IMG/VR virus record: IMGVR_UViG_3300037508_000029 | Span: 1-41,306 of that record | Reading direction: 5' to 3' (one strand) | DNA: 41,306 nucleotides | Origin: a virus | Shown here: positions 21,916 to 33,989 of the stretch, in pieces | Position numbering within the stretch: position 1 is the stretch's first letter | How the letters are laid out: every line of letters begins with the position of its first letter | Position numbers and translations under genes: made by a program | Notes under the pieces: generated by a model | The model's database searches: none | What the model was told of the DNA's origin: nothing | What the model saw: only the letters and a program-made list of their open reading frames with translations

Positions 21916-22815
21916 TTAGCCTAGGCCGCCGAGCGGCGTTCCATTGAGTTCTTTTCCTTTGTTCAACATGAGTTTTAGCCTTAGCAAGGCAGCCCGCTCG
22001 ACCTGCTGCAGGCGCGTACCTGATACGCCAGTGGCAGTCTCTAGTTCACGCCATGACACCGGCTTTTGTAGCCTTCGATTTTTGATGACATACTTTGACC
22101 TATCGTCGAGGTACTCATCCATTAGGTCCATCATCTCTTGCGCTTGATGGCTGATACTTAGGTCGTCAAAGTCAACTGTTGATTGCGGGTCAGCGATAAG
22201 ATCAATCAACGTAACGCCATCATTGTTGATGGGTGACATATCCAAGCTGCATACCGCATAACTGCGTTGCATTGCATCATAAATTACATTGATGTCAATG
22301 CCGATGTGATTTGCCACTTCATGCAGCGTTGGCGTACGGCAGAACTGATGGCCAAGCTCTGTGTGTACCCTAGCTATTTTTGTTAAAAGGTCATGCAGGC
22401 CAGTCGGCAACCTGATCATCGAATCATTCTGCGACAAGGCGCGTTGTATGCCTTGCTTAATCCACCAGTATGCGTAGGTCGAAAATTTGTAGCCGCGTGA
22501 ATAATCAAACAACTCAACCGCACGCGCTAGGCCGATGTTGCCCTCTTGGATCAGGTCCATAATTTCAAGCGACTTGCGCTTGCGGTTTTCGTACTTCTTT
22601 GCTACATGCACCACAAGTTGCAGGTTGCATTGAATAAATCGCTCGCGTGCGCGTTGGCCGCTACGCACTAGCCGATCTTCTGCTGCTGTTAGGTCACGCT
22701 CTAACTGCTGCAGCTCACGCATTTTGGCAATGCGCCTACCGTATTGAATCTCTTGGTCCACCGTGAGCAATGGAAACCTTGCGATCTCATTAAGGTAGTC
22801 TTTTAGTGATGACAT
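21916..22815 (-). CDS. RNA polymerase sigma-70 family factor
   Basis: The 299-residue protein would redirect the host RNA polymerase. Region 1.2 is at the N-terminus (SLKDYLNEIARFPLLTVDQE). Region 2 spans about residues 58-132, with 'LVVHVAKKYENR', 'LDLIQEGNIGLARAVELFDY'-like sequence and 'GYKFSTYAYWWIKQGIQRAL' for -10 recognition. Region 3 follows at about 133-205 and region 4 at about 225-285, with an HTH in 'SWRELETATGVSGTRLQQVE'. It lacks the long N-terminal region 1.1 of RpoD, like cyanobacterial group-2 sigmas. The gene comes late in the leftward unit and could switch on late structural genes. Confidence 0.92.
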   Translation of the reverse strand: MSSLKDYLNEIARFPLLTVDQEIQYGRRIAKMRELQQLERDLTAAEDRLVRSGQRARERFIQCNLQLVVHVAKKYENRKRKSLEIMDLIQEGNIGLARAVELFDYSRGYKFSTYAYWWIKQGIQRALSQNDSMIRLPTGLHDLLTKIARVHTELGHQFCRTPTLHEVANHIGIDINVIYDAMQRSYAVCSLDMSPINNDGVTLIDLIADPQSTVDFDDLSISHQAQEMMDLMDEYLDDRSKYVIKNRRLQKPVSWRELETATGVSGTRLQQVERAALLRLKLMLNKGKELNGTPLGGLG

Positions 22816-25007: not shown

Positions 25008-25764
25008 CAGCAAATGGGTCCTCGTCTGCAGGTGCTGCTAGCTCGGTTTCCTTAGCCAGTGCAAGCTCCATAAGGGTGTTGTACTGCTCATCGCTCAGGC
25101 TGGCTTTACGCACCTCCATGCGATCAGTGACCTCCTTGAGCTTGTCCATGGTGTCAGCCTTGGCAATAGCTACCTTGCCGGCTTGGAACACTTTTGCGTC
25201 CCCCACTGCCTTGGCTGGCAGTGCTGGCGCAGCGGTACTGGTGACAGTGACGGGCTCAACCGCTTGGTCCATCTCATCAGTGCTGTAGACGCCTGAAAGG
25301 TCCGCAGGAAATGCCTTGCGAAGCGCTAGGGCCTCAGAGCATTTGGCAATCATGGCAGCAGGCATCTTGGACCACAAGCCTTGGCCAGCGTTGTAATCCG
25401 CAAACCGTGCCACGCCAACAAAAGGATGGCTAGCACCTTTGCGATGGATGACGGTCTTAGCTGCGGCAGGTGGCTTGCTGCCAAGCCATACATCAGACCA
25501 CTGGCCGTCTTCACCGCACCAATGCGTCTCGCTGCCATCGAGTTGGCCGGTGCGTTCAGCGATGCTGCGCAGGCCGTCGATGCCGGCTTGGATGGTCATC
25601 TTGCCGCCACGCTTGATGGCGTATATCTGCTTGCTGAACGGGTCAAGCCCAGTACGCTGGCAGGCATAGGCAAACAGCCGTAGCTCGTCATTGCTGCATC
25701 CAGGCGCAATGGTGGTTGAAATTAGCTGCGTTTGTTCTGGTGTCCAGAGGGTAAGCGTGCTCAT
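25000..25764 (-). CDS. bet: Phage recombinase Bet (RecT/Red-beta family)
   Basis: The 254-residue protein anneals complementary single strands. Motifs: 'YACQRTGLDPFSKQIYAIKR', 'GGKMTIQAGIDGLRSIAERT', then 'SKMPAAMIAKCSEALALRKAFP' and 'LSGVYSTDEM'. These are the core of the Bet family. A variable, acidic C-terminus (ADEDPFADD) follows. It is coupled by TGATG to the RecE-like exonuclease, making a two-component exonuclease/annealase recombination system with SSB downstream. Confidence 0.92.
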   Translation of the reverse strand: MSTLTLWTPEQTQLISTTIAPGCSNDELRLFAYACQRTGLDPFSKQIYAIKRGGKMTIQAGIDGLRSIAERTGQLDGSETHWCGEDGQWSDVWLGSKPPAAAKTVIHRKGASHPFVGVARFADYNAGQGLWSKMPAAMIAKCSEALALRKAFPADLSGVYSTDEMDQAVEPVTVTSTAAPALPAKAVGDAKVFQAGKVAIAKADTMDKLKEVTDRMEVRKASLSDEQYNTLMELALAKETELAAPADEDPFADD

Positions 25765-27612: not shown

Positions 27613-28970
27613 TTGACTTTGCTCCATTGTCCTTTGGTTTGACGGGCGGCCATGACATGCTTTGCCCATGCCACTGGGTTTTTGTACCCCCGGCTTTGGC
27701 CTAGCGCAATCAGATCCTGCAGCGATTGCGCGCCACCTTGCTCCCGCTTGGCCTGCTGCCTTTGAAGCTCCACCAACTCCCCTTCAACCTGCTGCAGCTC
27801 GCGTACCTCAGCGGCGAAGGTATGGCCGCACTCACCGCATTGCTTAGCCTGGCTGGCCATTGCAGCGAAGCACTGCGGGCACACCTTGACGCTGGGCGCT
27901 TTCTCCCGGTCACGCTTGGCTAGGCCCTCTAAGGTCCACTCACGCGGCTCCAAGTGGTGGCCAAGCCTGAGCGTGTTGCCGACGTGATCCAACACCACTG
28001 CAGCAGCCTTGCCGGGTGATGGTCTGAGGCAGCGACCAATCATCTGCAGGTGCAGGCTGGTGCTAGCGGTAGGCCTTAACAGGATGCAGCCGCCGACTGA
28101 GGGCACGTCAACGCCCTCACCGATGAGCGCGCAACTGGTCAGCACCTTGAGCCGACCGGTACCTAACGCCTGCAGCAGGTCACGCCGTTGCTCGCTGGTC
28201 ATGCTGCCGTCGATGCTGGCGGCTGGGATGCCAGCACTTATAAATAGACGTGCCACCGCCCCGGCATGGGCCACTGAGCAGCAGAACGCAATTGCCGTCT
28301 GCCCTGGCAGGTGTTTGCGGTAATGCGACAGGCAGTCGCCCATGATCGTGCCGATCCGGTGCTCAGCCTCACGGGTGTCGAAGTCACCCATCCGCTTGCG
28401 CAGGCCGATGGTGTCAAAGCCCGGTGGCGCTAGCACTCGTGCAGGCGCAAGGTAGCCGTTATCGGTCAGCCACTGCGCGCTGGGGCCTTCCACCATTGCC
28501 TGGTAATGCTCGCTAAGGCCGCGGCCATCAAGCCTGATTGGCGTTGCGGTGACGCCCAGCAGATGCGCTTGGTGGAAGTGCTCAAGCACCTTGGCCCAGG
28601 TGCCTGCATTGCTGTGGTGCGCCTCGTCGATGATCACTAACTGGAAGAAGTCACGCGGCAGTTTGTGGAGCCTGCGGGCAAGGGTTTGAACTGATGCCAC
28701 CTGCACTGCTGCACTCAAATCCATGGCTCGGTTGGCGGCAATCACACCATGAGGCATTGGCAATGCGCGGCACGCCTGGTCCAGCAGCTCCTGACGGTGC
28801 ACCGCGATCAGCACGCGGTTGCCCTTTTTGGCGGCAGCCTGGGCGATGTAGCTGAAGCACACCGTTTTGCCGCCACCGGTCGGCAGCACTGCCAGTACTG
28901 TGCGCTTGCCGAGTTGGTACTGCAGGCGGATGTCGGTGATGAGCTGTTGTTGGTAGGGGCGGAGGTTCAC
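27609..28970 (-). CDS. SF2 DEAH-box helicase with zinc ribbon
   Basis: The 453-residue protein is an SF2 helicase of the type III restriction/UvrB-like fold: Walker A 'LPTGGGKT' (29-36), DEAH (115-118), TATP (141-144), then 'LTSCALIGEGVDVP' and 'QMIGRCLRPSPGK' for motifs V and VI. Near residues 380-400 a CPQC...CGEC zinc ribbon follows, then a charged coiled coil. It probably unwinds or remodels phage replication or recombination intermediates. It starts at GTG (28970), overlapping the upstream stop by 4 bases. Confidence 0.9.
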   Translation of the reverse strand: MNLRPYQQQLITDIRLQYQLGKRTVLAVLPTGGGKTVCFSYIAQAAAKKGNRVLIAVHRQELLDQACRALPMPHGVIAANRAMDLSAAVQVASVQTLARRLHKLPRDFFQLVIIDEAHHSNAGTWAKVLEHFHQAHLLGVTATPIRLDGRGLSEHYQAMVEGPSAQWLTDNGYLAPARVLAPPGFDTIGLRKRMGDFDTREAEHRIGTIMGDCLSHYRKHLPGQTAIAFCCSVAHAGAVARLFISAGIPAASIDGSMTSEQRRDLLQALGTGRLKVLTSCALIGEGVDVPSVGGCILLRPTASTSLHLQMIGRCLRPSPGKAAAVVLDHVGNTLRLGHHLEPREWTLEGLAKRDREKAPSVKVCPQCFAAMASQAKQCGECGHTFAAEVRELQQVEGELVELQRQQAKREQGGAQSLQDLIALGQSRGYKNPVAWAKHVMAARQTKGQWSKVK

Positions 28971-31225
28971 ACCAGCTCTCCCTGCTTATGCGACTCAACC
29001 GACTGCAAATTCTTGACTGCGCAGTTGAAGTAGCTGGGCTTCAGTTCAAAGCCGACGAAGCGTCGCTGCATTTGCAGGCTGACGTAACCCTCGCTGCCGA
29101 TGCCAGCGAACGGGCTGAGCACCAGATCGTCTGGATTGCTCCATAACTGCAGGCCGCGGCGGATCACCTCAAGCTGCAGCGGGCAGATGTGGCGCTCGTC
29201 CTCATTGGCGCGGGCGCTGCGGTACTGCAGCGTGTCTGATGGGTTGATGTCCATCCACACCGGGCTGGCGTAGCGCTGCCAGATGTTGATGCTGTCTTTG
29301 ATGGCGTCGCCTGTTTTGGCTGGTGGGTTCTCACCAGCAAACTCAGTGAACGGCCCTGCGCATGGCTCGGGGTTGTCGCCCAGCTTGCGCACAGTCACCA
29401 GATAGTCAGGGATGCCCTGGCGGCTCAGGGCTGAGTCCTTGCGCACTTGCTTGTGCAGCAGGCCGATCGCCTTGGTGCGCTGCATGGCCGTGACGGGATC
29501 CTTCCAGATGCAGACCTCTGAATGGAAGACAAAGCCAGCCGCCTGGAAGATGCGCAGCATGTCACCACGGAAATCCTTCACGCCGATAAAGCCATCGCGT
29601 TCTTTGCTACTGGGCAGGTTCATGCAGTGGAAGCTGATCAGCCGGCCAGGCATCAGCACGCGATGCAGCTCCTTGGCCAGGTAGACAAAGTGATCAAAGA
29701 ACTCCTGATCGTTGCGGCTGTTGCCCATGTCGCGGTCGCTGTTGGAGTAGGTATACAGCGACGCAAACGGCGGACTAAAGATGCTGTAGTGGATGCTATC
29801 CGCGTCAAGTTGTTTGATGCTCTCCACGCAGTCGCCCATGTACATATCCCAGTTGTCGCCTGACTGGTGCTCCGTAATGTGCGGCGCAACCTGACGCTGG
29901 ATCTTCTTGAGCTGTTCCATTGTTTGTTGTTTCATGATGACGACCATTGATTCAGCCATGGCGATGCTGTCCGCTTCTTTGCGGCGGATGTTCTCGATGA
30001 CGCGGCCCTCGGCCACGTCGTAGATGATGTGCGCATTAACTGGTTGCTGCTGGCCAAATCGCCAGCACCTACGGATGGCCTGATAGAAAGCCTCGTAGCT
30101 GTGGGATAGGCCAACAAACGCGACGTTGTGACAGCCCTGGAAGTTGAGGCCGAAGCCGAAGATGCTGGGCTTACTGACAAGTACGCGAATCTTGCCATCC
30201 TGAAAGTCGATCGCAGCACGGCGCTTGTGATCATCGTTGTCGCTGCCTGACACCTCGACCGCGCCATTAATGGCAGCAGTCAGCGCTTTGGACTCATCAT
30301 TGAGATCACACCAGATCAGCCATTGCTCAGTGCTGTCATTGGCTAGGGCTGCGGCTGCATCGACGCGCATCTGCAGCGATGCCTTGCGGACGTGCCGCTG
30401 ATCGCTCAGAGTGCGGGCTTCCATGGCGAACAGCGCCATCTGGCCAGCGTCATCGGCCATGGCCTCGCGTGGTGTCTCAACTGTGCAGTCTTGAATGGAT
30501 AGCTCGGGCAGGATGAAGTTGCCGTCGTCGTAGCCCAGGTCTGACGGCTTGCGGATGGTGACGGCCCAGCTGCAGACCCACTCCCAGAACTTGGACTGCG
30601 CGTGTCCCTTGAGCCGCCACTTACTGGTGTCGCCGCCGTCATGGACGAAGAACATGGCCAGCATCTCGGTCCTGGTCATCACGCCGATGAACTCGGCATG
30701 GTTGCCCAGCTCCATGTGATCGTTGGGTGCTGGCGTGGCTGAGCAGGCCAACCGGAATGGCGTTTGGCTGAAGCTGGAGATGATCTGGTTGCGGATCTTG
30801 CCGGTGTACGCCTTGAGGATGCTGCTCTCGTCGAGCACCACTCCATCGAATGCGGTCGGGTCGAAATGGCTGAGCTTTTCGTAGTTGGTGATCGTGATGC
30901 CGGGCTTGACCTCGGCCTGGGTTGCAGCGAACGCGCACGGAATGCCGAACTTGCCGCCCTCGCGGACGGTCTGGTGGGCTACAGCTAGTGGTGCCAGGAC
31001 CAACACGTTGCCGCCTGTGTGCTGATGCACCTGATGCGCCCATTCAAGCTGCATAGCGGTTTTGCCCATGCCGCAATCAGCCCAGATGCAAAACCTGCCA
31101 ACACGGCAGGCCATGGTCACGATGTCCCGCTGAAATGGGAACAGCGGCGCAATGAAGCTAGGCGGGTCAAATCCTGCAGGCGCGCAGGCAGTGGATTTTG
31201 AAGCTAGGAAGTCTTGGTAAGTCAT
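28967..31225 (-). CDS. SNF2-type helicase fused to DNA methyltransferase
   Basis: The 752-residue protein joins two enzymes. Residues about 20-430 are a SNF2/SF2 ATPase: Walker A 'CGMGKT' (51-56), DESS (132-135), 'CSATP' (161-165), 'GFGLNFQGC' (357-365) and 'QAIRRCWRFGQ' (382-392). Residues about 455-740 are an amino-methyltransferase with motif IV 'SPPF' (484-487) before the SAM motif 'FAGIGS' (706-711), the beta-class order. The product would be N4-methylcytosine or N6-methyladenine. No separate restriction enzyme is seen beside it, apart from the VRR-NUC two genes on. It is the first gene of the leftward unit, so it is expressed early. Confidence 0.92.
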   Translation of the reverse strand: MTYQDFLASKSTACAPAGFDPPSFIAPLFPFQRDIVTMACRVGRFCIWADCGMGKTAMQLEWAHQVHQHTGGNVLVLAPLAVAHQTVREGGKFGIPCAFAATQAEVKPGITITNYEKLSHFDPTAFDGVVLDESSILKAYTGKIRNQIISSFSQTPFRLACSATPAPNDHMELGNHAEFIGVMTRTEMLAMFFVHDGGDTSKWRLKGHAQSKFWEWVCSWAVTIRKPSDLGYDDGNFILPELSIQDCTVETPREAMADDAGQMALFAMEARTLSDQRHVRKASLQMRVDAAAALANDSTEQWLIWCDLNDESKALTAAINGAVEVSGSDNDDHKRRAAIDFQDGKIRVLVSKPSIFGFGLNFQGCHNVAFVGLSHSYEAFYQAIRRCWRFGQQQPVNAHIIYDVAEGRVIENIRRKEADSIAMAESMVVIMKQQTMEQLKKIQRQVAPHITEHQSGDNWDMYMGDCVESIKQLDADSIHYSIFSPPFASLYTYSNSDRDMGNSRNDQEFFDHFVYLAKELHRVLMPGRLISFHCMNLPSSKERDGFIGVKDFRGDMLRIFQAAGFVFHSEVCIWKDPVTAMQRTKAIGLLHKQVRKDSALSRQGIPDYLVTVRKLGDNPEPCAGPFTEFAGENPPAKTGDAIKDSINIWQRYASPVWMDINPSDTLQYRSARANEDERHICPLQLEVIRRGLQLWSNPDDLVLSPFAGIGSEGYVSLQMQRRFVGFELKPSYFNCAVKNLQSVESHKQGELV

Positions 31226-31240
31226 AGGCCGTGTCAGGCC

Positions 31241-31268
31241 TTGCCAGCGTAGCAGCCGCTGCTACAGT
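31241..31268 (+). promoter_or_regulatory. Rightward promoter of the divergent control region
   Basis: TTGCCA (31241-31246) and TACAGT (31263-31268) are separated by 16 bases, close to a sigma-70 promoter. It would start transcription near 31275, 17 bases before the GTG of the RHH gene. The -10/-35 interval contains most of a perfect palindrome. No other gap in this region could hold the promoter for the replication genes. The hexamers are imperfect, so it is a candidate only. Confidence 0.5.
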
Positions 31269-31274
31269 GTGCAA
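31246..31274 (-). promoter_or_regulatory. Leftward promoter of the divergent control region
   Basis: On the minus strand, TTGCAC (31269-31274) and TACGCT (31246-31251) lie 17 bases apart, pointing toward the SNF2-methyltransferase start at 31225. The -10 is weak (3 of 6). It overlaps the rightward candidate, so the two would compete for polymerase. The 66-base gap leaves little other room for a promoter. Confidence 0.4.
31249..31265. promoter_or_regulatory. Palindromic operator candidate
   Basis: GTAGCAG-CCG-CTGCTAC is a perfect 7+7 bp inverted repeat with a 3-base centre. It sits between the -35 and -10 of both divergent promoter candidates. A protein bound here could repress both units at once. 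The RHH protein encoded 27 bases downstream is the obvious candidate ligand, by analogy with Arc/CopG-type autorepression. Confidence 0.55.
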
Positions 31275-31291
31275 GCACCTAGCCCAGCACC

Positions 31292-31453
31292 GTGCGCCTG
31301 AGCCACCCAACCCATATACGTCTAACCGCCGACCAGATGCAGCGCCTTGACTCTTGGCGTGGTGACCGCATGAATCGTGCTACGGCCATCCGCCTGCTAT
31401 TGGATCAATCGCTGCGGTTGCATCTGGACGGCATCTTGCCAGCAACCAAATGA
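31292..31453 (+). CDS. RHH (Arc/CopG-like) regulator, GTG start
   Basis: A 53-residue frame from GTG 31292 reads MRLSHPTHIRLTADQMQRLD then 'SWRGDRMNRATAIRLLLDQS'. The strand 'HIRLTADQMQRLDSW' followed by 'NRATAIRLLLDQSLRL' is the ribbon-helix-helix pattern, with the second helix at 'RATAIRLLLDQS'. Its TGA overlaps the ATG of the primase gene (ATGA at 31450-31453). As the first gene downstream of the divergent control region it is a good candidate for an early-gene repressor. Confidence 0.75.
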   Translation: MRLSHPTHIRLTADQMQRLDSWRGDRMNRATAIRLLLDQSLRLHLDGILPATK

Positions 31454-33516
31454 CGACTCTTGACGAACTAGCCCGTCTGCCTGACGGGTGGGGTTTTGTT
31501 GCGGTTGATGGTGAGAAGCGCCCATACCAACCCGAATGGCAGAAGAAGCCCCTATCCAAAGCCAAGCTGGCGGCTGAATTAAAAGCCGGTCGCGCCCGTG
31601 CTATCGGCGTCTGCTGCGGCGTGCCATCAGGTGGTTTGCTGTTCCTTGACCACGACGGCAAGTCAGCCAGCACCATCCTCCGCGACTGGGGGTGCCCCAT
31701 GTCGTCATTGCCGCGTAGCTGGACCGTTACCTCAGGCCGCGACGGCAGGTTTCAGGTCATCTACCAAGTACCGGAGCACTACTGGGATGGCATCGCCACA
31801 CGCAAATACAAAACCGGCGTTACCGATGCCGAAGGCAAGCCCGAGCAAGTTGAACTTCGCTGGACCGGCTGCCAATCCGTCGTAGCAGGTGACCACCCAC
31901 TCACGCCTGGTTACCGCTGGGTCCGTGGTTACGCTCCTGGCGACCTGCCAATTGCCGAGGCGCCGCCCGAACTACTGGAGCGGATGCTTAAACCCGTACC
32001 TGCTGCAGTGGTAACACCAGAGCCGCGTGCTGCTGCTGGCAGTGATGACACCACTAGGGCACGTTCATACCTCGACGCATTGGACGCCGCTAGGGCTGAT
32101 GACTACGACGACTGGTTGGCCGTTGGCATGGCGCTCCATAGCCTCGGTGATGACACGCTCTTAGATGACTGGGAACAGTGGTCAGCGCAGTCCGGTAAGC
32201 ACAAGCCCAGTGACTGTCAGCGCAAATGGCGCAGTTTTAAGAAGTCCGGCATCACCCTTGGCACCCTTGGCGATATGGCCAAGAAAGACGGCTGGCGTAG
32301 TTCCGCTGTTGTCAAGCGCGTTGTGGGTGGCAGAAGCGGTGGCAATCCGGAGGCTGATACCCCGCCGATCATCACAAAACCCGAGAAGCTTGAAACCGCA
32401 GAGCTGCTGGCATTTCTCCGCAGCAAATGCGATGACATCCGCTACAACACCTTTACCCAGCAAATCGAAATCAAAGAGCAAGTCGTAGAAGGCGCCGACC
32501 GTTTCTACCTCAAGCTGGCGGAGATGGGCTACAAGGTGAGCAAGGAACTTGCAATCGACTGCCTTGTGCAGGTAGCTAACGAAAACCCATATGACCCCGT
32601 CCGCGAATACCTCGAATGGTGCGCTAATACCACTGAACCCGCATACATCGACCGACTATCAACCGCATACCTGCGCCCTAGCGATGAGGGCCATCCAGAG
32701 CCCACCATCTACGACGAGATGCTAAAGCGCACCCTCATCGGTGCTGTGGCGCGTGCCTTTAATCCCGGCTGCAAGCATGACACCGCTTGCGTCATCATGG
32801 GCGATCAAGGCGCATACAAATCCAGCTTTTGGCAGTGCCTCGGTGGTCCATTCTTTAGTGATGCGCTTGGTGACATCACAACCAAAGATGACATCATGGT
32901 GCTACACCGCTCATGGATGATGGAATGGGCCGAGCTAGACCACATCACCAATCGCAAGCACGCCGGACAAGTCAAGGCGTTCTTATCCCAAGCGGTAGAC
33001 CTACTCCGCGTGCCCTACGGCAAAGCTGTTGAATCATTCCCTCGCCGTGGCATCATCGTCGGTACAACTAACAAAACCGCAGGCTTTTTGGTTGATGAAA
33101 CTGGTAACCGCCGCTTCTGGGTTATCCCTACCACCAAGACGCAGCAGGACCAAATCAATACCGCTGCACTATTGCTAGAGCGCGATGCCATATGGGCTGC
33201 TGCTGTCAAGATGTACCGCGACGGTGAGTCCAGTCGCTTACCCGCTGCGATGGAAAATCGCATTACCGAAGAGAACAACACCTACCTAATCGACTCCCCA
33301 TGGCGTAGCCCTATCATCGAATATCTTGACCGTCGCGCAAAGGTTGAACTGCTTACATCTGAGGAGATATTGGAATATGCAATCAAGAAGCCGCTAGAGC
33401 GTCAAAGCCGCGCTGACCAGATGCAGGTGGCATCCATTCTCAAAGATCTTGGGTGGGTCAAGAAACGAGAGGCGACAGGACGTAGGAGGTGGCATTATTG
33501 CAGGTCAGACGGTTAG
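31450..33516 (+). CDS. Primase-helicase: Prim-Pol-like, PriCT-2-like, VapE-type ATPase
   Basis: The 688-residue protein combines replication functions. Residues about 10-180 resemble the bifunctional primase/polymerase N-domain, with 'GGLLFLDHDG' (61-70) as a possible metal site. Residues about 203-285 resemble a PriCT-2 linker ('DWLAVGMALHSLGDD', 'KWRSFKKSG'). Residues about 420-600 are a VapE-type SF3-like ATPase with Walker A 'GDQGAYKSS' (451-459), 'MMEWAELD' for Walker B and 'TGNRRFWVIP' (551-560) as the arginine-containing sensor. It should prime and unwind at the origin. The iteron cluster begins inside its 3' end. Confidence 0.88.
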   Translation: MTTLDELARLPDGWGFVAVDGEKRPYQPEWQKKPLSKAKLAAELKAGRARAIGVCCGVPSGGLLFLDHDGKSASTILRDWGCPMSSLPRSWTVTSGRDGRFQVIYQVPEHYWDGIATRKYKTGVTDAEGKPEQVELRWTGCQSVVAGDHPLTPGYRWVRGYAPGDLPIAEAPPELLERMLKPVPAAVVTPEPRAAAGSDDTTRARSYLDALDAARADDYDDWLAVGMALHSLGDDTLLDDWEQWSAQSGKHKPSDCQRKWRSFKKSGITLGTLGDMAKKDGWRSSAVVKRVVGGRSGGNPEADTPPIITKPEKLETAELLAFLRSKCDDIRYNTFTQQIEIKEQVVEGADRFYLKLAEMGYKVSKELAIDCLVQVANENPYDPVREYLEWCANTTEPAYIDRLSTAYLRPSDEGHPEPTIYDEMLKRTLIGAVARAFNPGCKHDTACVIMGDQGAYKSSFWQCLGGPFFSDALGDITTKDDIMVLHRSWMMEWAELDHITNRKHAGQVKAFLSQAVDLLRVPYGKAVESFPRRGIIVGTTNKTAGFLVDETGNRRFWVIPTTKTQQDQINTAALLLERDAIWAAAVKMYRDGESSRLPAAMENRITEENNTYLIDSPWRSPIIEYLDRRAKVELLTSEEILEYAIKKPLERQSRADQMQVASILKDLGWVKKREATGRRRWHYCRSDG

Positions 33517-33709
33517 ACGGCAGTCAGGGACTGGGTTTTCGCCGTCCTAACCTCCCAACCCGACCGACCTACCTAGAAGAGTTTCCCTAACCCCCCTCCT
33601 CCCCCCTTTTACTTATTCTTCTTAAGAGGTTAGGTTGGTTAGACGGTTAGGTAAAGCCAGTCCACGACAGGCGTCTAACCGTCCAAACCTCCGAAAACAG
33701 GTCAGACGG
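33503..33709. other. Iteron-like repeat cluster, probable replication origin
   Basis: The motif GGTYAGACGG occurs directly at 33503-33512, 33511-33520, 33637-33646 and 33700-33709, and inverted at 33672-33681 with one mismatch. Half-sites GGTTAG occur at 33628 and 33645. Copies at 33637 and 33672 can form a 9-bp stem. Between them lies a pyrimidine-rich tract, about 33582-33623, with C-runs then T-rich sequence. Apart from its first 14 bases the cluster lies in the largest noncoding stretch (33517-33716), next to the primase-helicase gene. That is the classic layout of a phage origin; an operator array for the downstream RHH-like protein is the alternative. Confidence 0.6.
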
Positions 33710-33716
33710 CTACAAA

Positions 33717-33989
33717 ATGCAAGAAATCAAGGTCCGATTTAACCCCGAAGACATCCAACACCTAGAACGCCAAGCTGCTGCCGCTGGAACCAGCCGCGCT
33801 GCTCTCATTCGTGACAGAGCGTTAAGCCTCCCTGTTGCACGGTTGACCACGGTGGAGTACAATGCGCTCGTGGCTGATGCCGCCGCCTACATGCGCGGCG
33901 ATTTGCCCAAGCTGCAAGTTGAAACACTCACCGCTTATGTCATCACCCGACTTCATCAACATCAACGCCAAGCAGACGCCAGTCATTAA
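33717..33989 (+). CDS. MobC/RHH-like small DNA-binding protein
   Basis: The 90-residue protein begins with a strand 'QEIKVRFNPEDIQHLERQA' and the helix pair 'AAAGTSRAALIRDRALS'. It resembles the ribbon-helix-helix domain of MobC-like relaxosome accessory proteins and CopG-type regulators. The C-terminal half is helical. The ATG is 8 bases after the last iteron copy, so this protein may bind those repeats as an initiator accessory or autoregulator. That link is inferred from position. Confidence 0.7.
   Translation: MQEIKVRFNPEDIQHLERQAAAAGTSRAALIRDRALSLPVARLTTVEYNALVADAAAYMRGDLPKLQVETLTAYVITRLHQHQRQADASH

Follow-up and report, generated by a model that had tools for sequence, protein, structure and literature searches.

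The window, meaning the whole stretch of DNA analysed, comprises the 41,306 bases of a virus record. It contains a gene of a replication protein with an AEP PrimPol domain (residues ~1–185), a PriCT_2 domain (PF08707, E 6e-22, residues 204–277), a VapE-type helicase (PF05272, E 3e-62, residues 414–612) and a C-terminal winged helix (residues ~615–688). Structural alignment of the AlphaFold (AF2) model gave Z 12–13 for the N-terminal PrimPol fold against the PrimPol of pRN1; residues 308–688 aligned with PriRep1 of a staphylococcal island (7pds_B) with Z 17.1 and rmsd 5.4 over 329 residues, and the SaPI5 primase-helicase was a poorer structural match than PriRep1. In the AF2 models the winged helix comprises a helix at residues 654–666 and wing strands at 669–673 and 681–685, with pLDDT of ~80–93. 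A fold search with the C-terminal domain alone returned general winged-helix matches only (Z 5–7), which supports the fold and points to no particular family.

Downstream of the replication gene lies an iteron array (Table 1), followed by genes of an RHH protein, small ORFs, a beta-clamp homologue and TerL, the latter starting ~2 kb from the array. The terminase large subunit is thus encoded in the window, which does not correspond to satellite status in the sense of PICI-like helper dependence. Among annotated isolates the closest is Synechococcus phage S-LBS1, which has a homologous primase (~60% identical) and a complete genome of the tailed-phage kind, capsid and tail genes included. A gene for a sigma-70-type factor is present both in the window (21916–22815, minus strand) and in S-LBS1. 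Upstream of the primase gene and divergent from it, a single ORF (28967–31225, minus strand) encodes a fused SF2 helicase and N4/N6-type DNA methyltransferase, which are represented by separate genes in S-LBS1. A lone iteron-like site, GGTTAGACGT, occurs between these divergent genes (31318–31327, minus strand); no equivalent 8-mer was found upstream of the primase in other relatives.

Table 1. Features of the replication gene and the adjacent iteron array (positions in the window)
Feature	Position	Strand	Remarks
Replication protein gene (PrimPol-PriCT_2-VapE)	31450–33516	+	688 aa; stop at 33516
Coding stretch of the predicted iteron reader, residues 611–688	33280–33513	+	
Iteron GGTCAGACGG	33503–33512	+	within 3' end of primase gene
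Iteron GGTTAGACGG	33511–33520	+	at primase stop
Left inverted half-site cluster GGTTAGGACG, GGTTGGGAGG, GGTCGGGTTG, GGTCGGTCGG, GGTAGGTCGG	33543–33573	-	relatives have equivalent
GAGTTTCCC element, then C-rich block	33579–33606	+	
AT-rich block	33606–33627	+	candidate melting site; immediately 5' of direct iterons
Right direct iteron cluster GGTTAGGTTGGTTAGACGGTTAGGTAA	33628–33654	+	full iteron 33637–33646
Inverted iteron GGTTAGACGC	33671–33680	-	one mismatch
Iteron GGTCAGACGG	33700–33709	+	7 bases 5' of RHH start codon
Inverted-repeat arms, 31 nt, 84%	33508–33538 and 33653–33683		large single-strand stem-loop possible
RHH (NikA-like) protein gene	33717–33989	+	PF21983, E 1e-7

The sequence-only reading had described four direct copies and one inverted copy of GGTYAGACGG. 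The four direct copies are exact and are the only ones in the 41.3 kb, all of them on the plus strand and in the array; the inverted copy, however, carries one mismatch. With one mismatch allowed, 11 matches were found in the window against 3.1 expected, a number reached in none of 100 shuffles. The core GGTNRG occurs 14 times in the 220 bp from position 33481, seven times on each strand, while the next densest 220 bp of the window contain five; across 370 bp of the array region, 13 cores stand against 2.5 expected (z 7.3). The repeat cluster is not a product of chance. It is organized as a plus-strand pair at the primase stop, with the other left cores inverted, then the tract, then right cores in direct orientation; the inverted half-sites at 33543–33592 had not been listed as such before. 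The 60-mer starting at 33564 is the most strand-asymmetric in the window, and the 20-mer at 33606 has a GC content of 20%, within the lowest 0.15% of the window. The borders were described correctly, the first iterons overlapping the primase stop codon and the last repeat ending 7 bases short of the RHH start, but the array does not occupy the largest noncoding stretch, since 33517–33716 comprises 200 bp and 31226–31449 comprises 224 bp. No intrinsic terminator was detected inside the array. A G-quadruplex in the C-rich tract was considered and rejected, the strict motif occurring in 14 of 50 relatives but not in the window. The heptamer TTGGTTA (33635–33641), which occurs once in the window, within the array, resembles the site TTTGGTTA of the NrS-1 PrimPol (PMC8718748); it is left as a lead because the array core varies among lineages.

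The search for relatives, in three scans over viral contigs and one over genome contigs, yielded ~200 loci, reduced to ~127–130 distinct ones and to a non-redundant set of 50. In ~125 related viral contigs, including the isolate S-LBS1, an iteron cluster lies 3' of the same primase-helicase gene; the prediction that would have counted against an origin, absence of the repeats from relatives with the same primase, thus fails in those examined. The sequence of the iterons depends on lineage: GGTTAGACGG in the window and GGTAGGAC, GGTAGGGCA, GGTTGGCAA, GGTTGGAA, GGTTGGGACA and GGTGGGGTAC elsewhere. Enrichment of the GGTNRG core was found in 44 of the 50 non-redundant relatives and missed at p 0.05 in the other six, two of which, L145 and L146, have a changed core of the GATAGGACGG type. 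The top repeat 8-mer of each locus is ~340 times denser in the array region than in the rest of the locus, a ratio inflated because the 8-mer was picked from the array region, and hardly occurs 5' of the primase gene.

The 3' flank of the primase gene follows a shared plan, with iterons near the stop codon, a C-rich and then AT-rich tract, and further iterons beyond it. Among 48 relatives, the 25 nt 5' of the first direct iteron are on average 70% AT and the 30 nt preceding them 50% C; the C-rich block is present in nearly all relatives, and a TTTCC/TTACC-like element accompanies it in 20 of the 48. The gene that follows the array varies (RHH in 11 of 50 relatives, other genes elsewhere), while the array stays 3' of the primase. 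The RHH gene is therefore a neighbour of the array and probably not a defining part of the origin. In the array flanks of relatives, a small inverted repeat of the type CTTGC..GCAAG recurs between direct and inverted iterons, for example in L014, L035, L106 and L116.

Iteron type and the C-terminal domain of the replication protein were found to covary. The more the C-terminal domains of two loci diverge, the further apart their iteron profiles tend to be (r 0.48–0.52; partial Mantel p 0.001); no such relation holds for the PrimPol domain (r 0.07) or the helicase (r 0.08). In 30-residue sliding windows, with iterons counted strictly 3' of the stop codon, r does not exceed 0.14 up to residue 615 and is 0.25–0.52 past it, with a sharp step near residues 601–616. 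Residues 611–686, which hold 68 of the 578 variable columns, contain 16 of the top 20 iteron-associated columns, among them K671, A675, R679, R680, H682 and Y683 of the predicted wing. Of the pairs formed by the 127 loci, 403 share a C-terminal identity of 85% or more, and the iteron difference exceeds 0.22 in only 16 of these pairs.

The covariation could result in part from physical linkage: the C-terminal codons adjoin the array and recombine with it as a block, so that recombination alone would carry both along. However, residues 571–615, encoded less than 350 bp from the array, showed no correlation with iterons, and the lack of signal in codons just 5' of the domain boundary argues, short of proof of binding, that the domain itself matters. 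Fourfold sites, which are probably saturated, did not correlate with iterons either. Judging from these sequence comparisons, the iterons are probably read by the protein's own C-terminal winged helix. The RHH protein, which the sequence-only reading had named for a binding test along with the primase-helicase, is not favoured as the binder.

A pair of loci, L100 and L108, shows how the two parts may move together. Their helicases are 99% identical, while their C-terminal domains share 49% identity, their tracts have opposite orientations and their iterons differ (GGTAGGGCA vs GGTTGGCA). DNA identity is mostly 84–100% up to ~220 nt before the stop codon, falls to 40–70% across the C-terminal domain and the array, and returns to 80% at ~320 nt past the stop and ~70–80% beyond. 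From this profile, the pair is a natural joint replacement of the predicted reader domain and the array, in which the flanking DNA is homologous on either side. On the helicase tree, where two of the orientations were corrected by hand and one locus was left without assignment, tract orientation changed at least four times, which whole-block replacements would explain; in-place inversion was considered for the opposite orientations and set aside, since whole-block replacement in L100/L108 accounts for at least one case. At L050 (8064–8400), iterons of one lineage are followed by an RHH start that by eye resembles another lineage, which suggests recombination between the array and the RHH gene. 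The chances appear about even that the origin and its reader form a swappable cassette (~540 bp in L100/L108), exchanged whole at the boundary between helicase and C-terminal domain and diversified, with competitors that target the origin, satellites or incompatibility as conceivable selective forces.

The change of GC skew anticipated for an origin was recovered in part. No skew switch was found in the window, the cumulative minimum of which lies at 36.7 kb, or in its closest relatives, but five relatives, S-LBS1 among them, have their circular cumulative minimum 0.2–1.2 kb from the array. In two of these genomes, G014 and G011, third-position GC skew reverses at the array, although the genes on either side are co-directional. 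The designation of the cluster as a probable replication origin is accordingly supported by its conserved place in relatives and the nearby skew minimum in five genomes.

Other functions of the array were considered. Repeats at their own promoters are frequent targets of RHH repressors, and the RHH start 7 bases past the last repeat, together with the NikA-like RHH fold, would fit operator sites serving autoregulation, with no origin involved. This is quite improbable: 39 of the 50 relatives keep the array with no RHH gene downstream, so the protein cannot be its general partner; iteron type tracks the primase C-terminus; array and primase of L050 are of one type while its RHH start, by eye, resembles another group; and no sigma-70-like promoter was found in 33400–33800. 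Iterons of plasmids can also act in handcuffing and copy control, and a true iteron array bound by the primase-helicase could serve as such an element or a partition-like one, the origin being elsewhere. The missing skew shift in the clade of the window agrees with this, whereas the AT-rich block adjoining the iterons, the SaPI precedent and the skew minimum that the sister clade shows at the array speak against it, leaving it a similarly slim chance. The position between replication and terminase genes, with TerL ~2 kb downstream in the window and the S-LBS1 record starting with the gene of the terminase small subunit, would suit a packaging (pac/cos) site, but the array accompanies the primase gene whichever gene comes next, iteron type follows the primase C-terminus, and the termini of S-LBS1 are predicted at position 25,643, away from the array (PMC6157547); of these possibilities it is the most remote.

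The most serious alternative is an origin of the pRN1 type, with a large stem-loop downstream of the gene, and not the iterons, as the structure that the protein recognizes. Replication of pRN1 depends on a 100-nt stem-loop situated 3' of its PrimPol-helicase gene, and the same was proposed for phage BIP-1 (PMC4234260); the 31-nt inverted repeat around the tract of the window, with a DNA fold z of −4.57, is compatible with such a structure. A conserved large stem-loop lacking iterons is nevertheless not what the 50 relatives present: fold z is below −2 in only 35 and around zero or higher in several, against 44 with enriched iteron cores, and inverted iterons produce pairing by themselves. This alternative is therefore unlikely, though less so than the others.

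The region at ~33503–33709 is very probably a SaPI-like, initiator-adjacent iteron origin, the upstream protein serving as its own initiator and reading the iterons with its C-terminus. The computational observations behind this interpretation are the conserved position and layout, the specific covariation of the C-terminal domain with the iterons, and the joint replacement in L100/L108; binding, melting, priming, origin activity and bidirectionality we infer from sequence. In the proposed mechanism, the PrimPol-PriCT_2-VapE protein would act at the array downstream of its gene, where the winged helix (~615–688) would bind iterons on both sides of the tract, the wing adding specificity. The recognized iteron would consist of the GGTNRG core and a lineage-specific tail of 3–4 nt, ACGG in the window. 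Helicase rings would be loaded on the two iteron clusters, the AT-rich block would melt, and the PrimPol domain would then prime synthesis, while the reader domain and the array would constitute one block exchangeable by recombination.

Similar organization is known for several mobile elements. The C-terminal domain of SaPI Rep proteins binds iterons immediately 3' of their own gene (PMC7581432), and in chromosomal islands of the SaPI/PICI kind two iteron sets flank an AT-rich candidate melting region (PMC6092414). As in the pri-rep-ori of these islands (PriRep1, 7pds; SaPI5, 7om0/7ola), an AEP primase is combined with a VapE/Rep helicase, the putative origin lies directly 3' of the initiator gene with the cluster overlapping the stop codon, and left (inverted) and right (direct) clusters surround a tract with a 20-mer of 20% GC. 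The differences are that the window belongs to a tailed cyanophage with terminase genes and not to a satellite, that a PriCT_2 domain is present, that the tract is C-rich and then AT-rich with strong strand asymmetry, and that the iteron sequences are different. With pRN1 ORF904 and BIP-1 the cyanophage protein shares the PrimPol-helicase-winged-helix composition and a candidate origin immediately 3' of the gene (PMC4234260); those origins were described as iteron-free stem-loops, whereas iterons are the conserved feature in the cyanophages, and inspection by eye revealed no comparable iteron array 3' of the BIP-1 primase gene.

In the RepA_N/ori system of Vibrio cholerae PLE, the DNA-binding domain of the initiator and the iterons covary and swap together (PMC8263062), as reader domain and iterons do here, but the PLE initiator belongs to an unrelated family, its DNA-binding domain is N-terminal, and PLE is a satellite. 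The alpha protein of phage P4 is likewise a primase-helicase with a winged helix, which binds origin repeats (ori/crr; summarized in PMC4234260), although its primase is of the Toprim type. In SCCmec, Cch2 uses its C-terminal domain to bind direct repeats located 3' of the helicase gene and does not need the inverted repeats for this (PMC7581432); the C-terminal domain, the repeats and the putative downstream origin are comparable, while the separate polymerase/primase, the presence of three short iterons only and the staphylococcal nature of the element are not.

Initiator-adjacent iteron origins read by the initiator C-terminus (SaPIs) and joint swapping of reader and origin (PLEs, PMC8263062) are thus already known; what is new within the literature searched is that a broad family of tailed cyanophages has this arrangement, with numerous matched variants of reader and iterons and one natural swap. 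A candidate origin and its cognate initiator domain are thereby proposed for freshwater cyanophages of a large group that has hardly been studied and includes S-LBS1, the satellite-type layout of initiator gene followed by iteron origin is extended to tailed phages, and the findings bear on whether replicons with PrimPol-helicases use a stem-loop or sequence repeats. If the cassette interpretation is true, dozens of matched reader/iteron pairs are available from which a recognition code could be read; such pairs, if confirmed, would be useful for compatible replicons in cyanobacteria.

Two phage-like contigs containing the module, L086 and L087, were assigned by binning to a beta-proteobacterium and to a Planctomycetota bacterium; they are possibly mis-binned cyanophage contigs or a sign of wider hosts. 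In S-LBS1, ~119 bp of the array recur at the very end of the record (L084:22183–22300 and L084:22435–22553), and the deposited genome may end inside the iteron array by an assembly artefact or may have a true long repeat.
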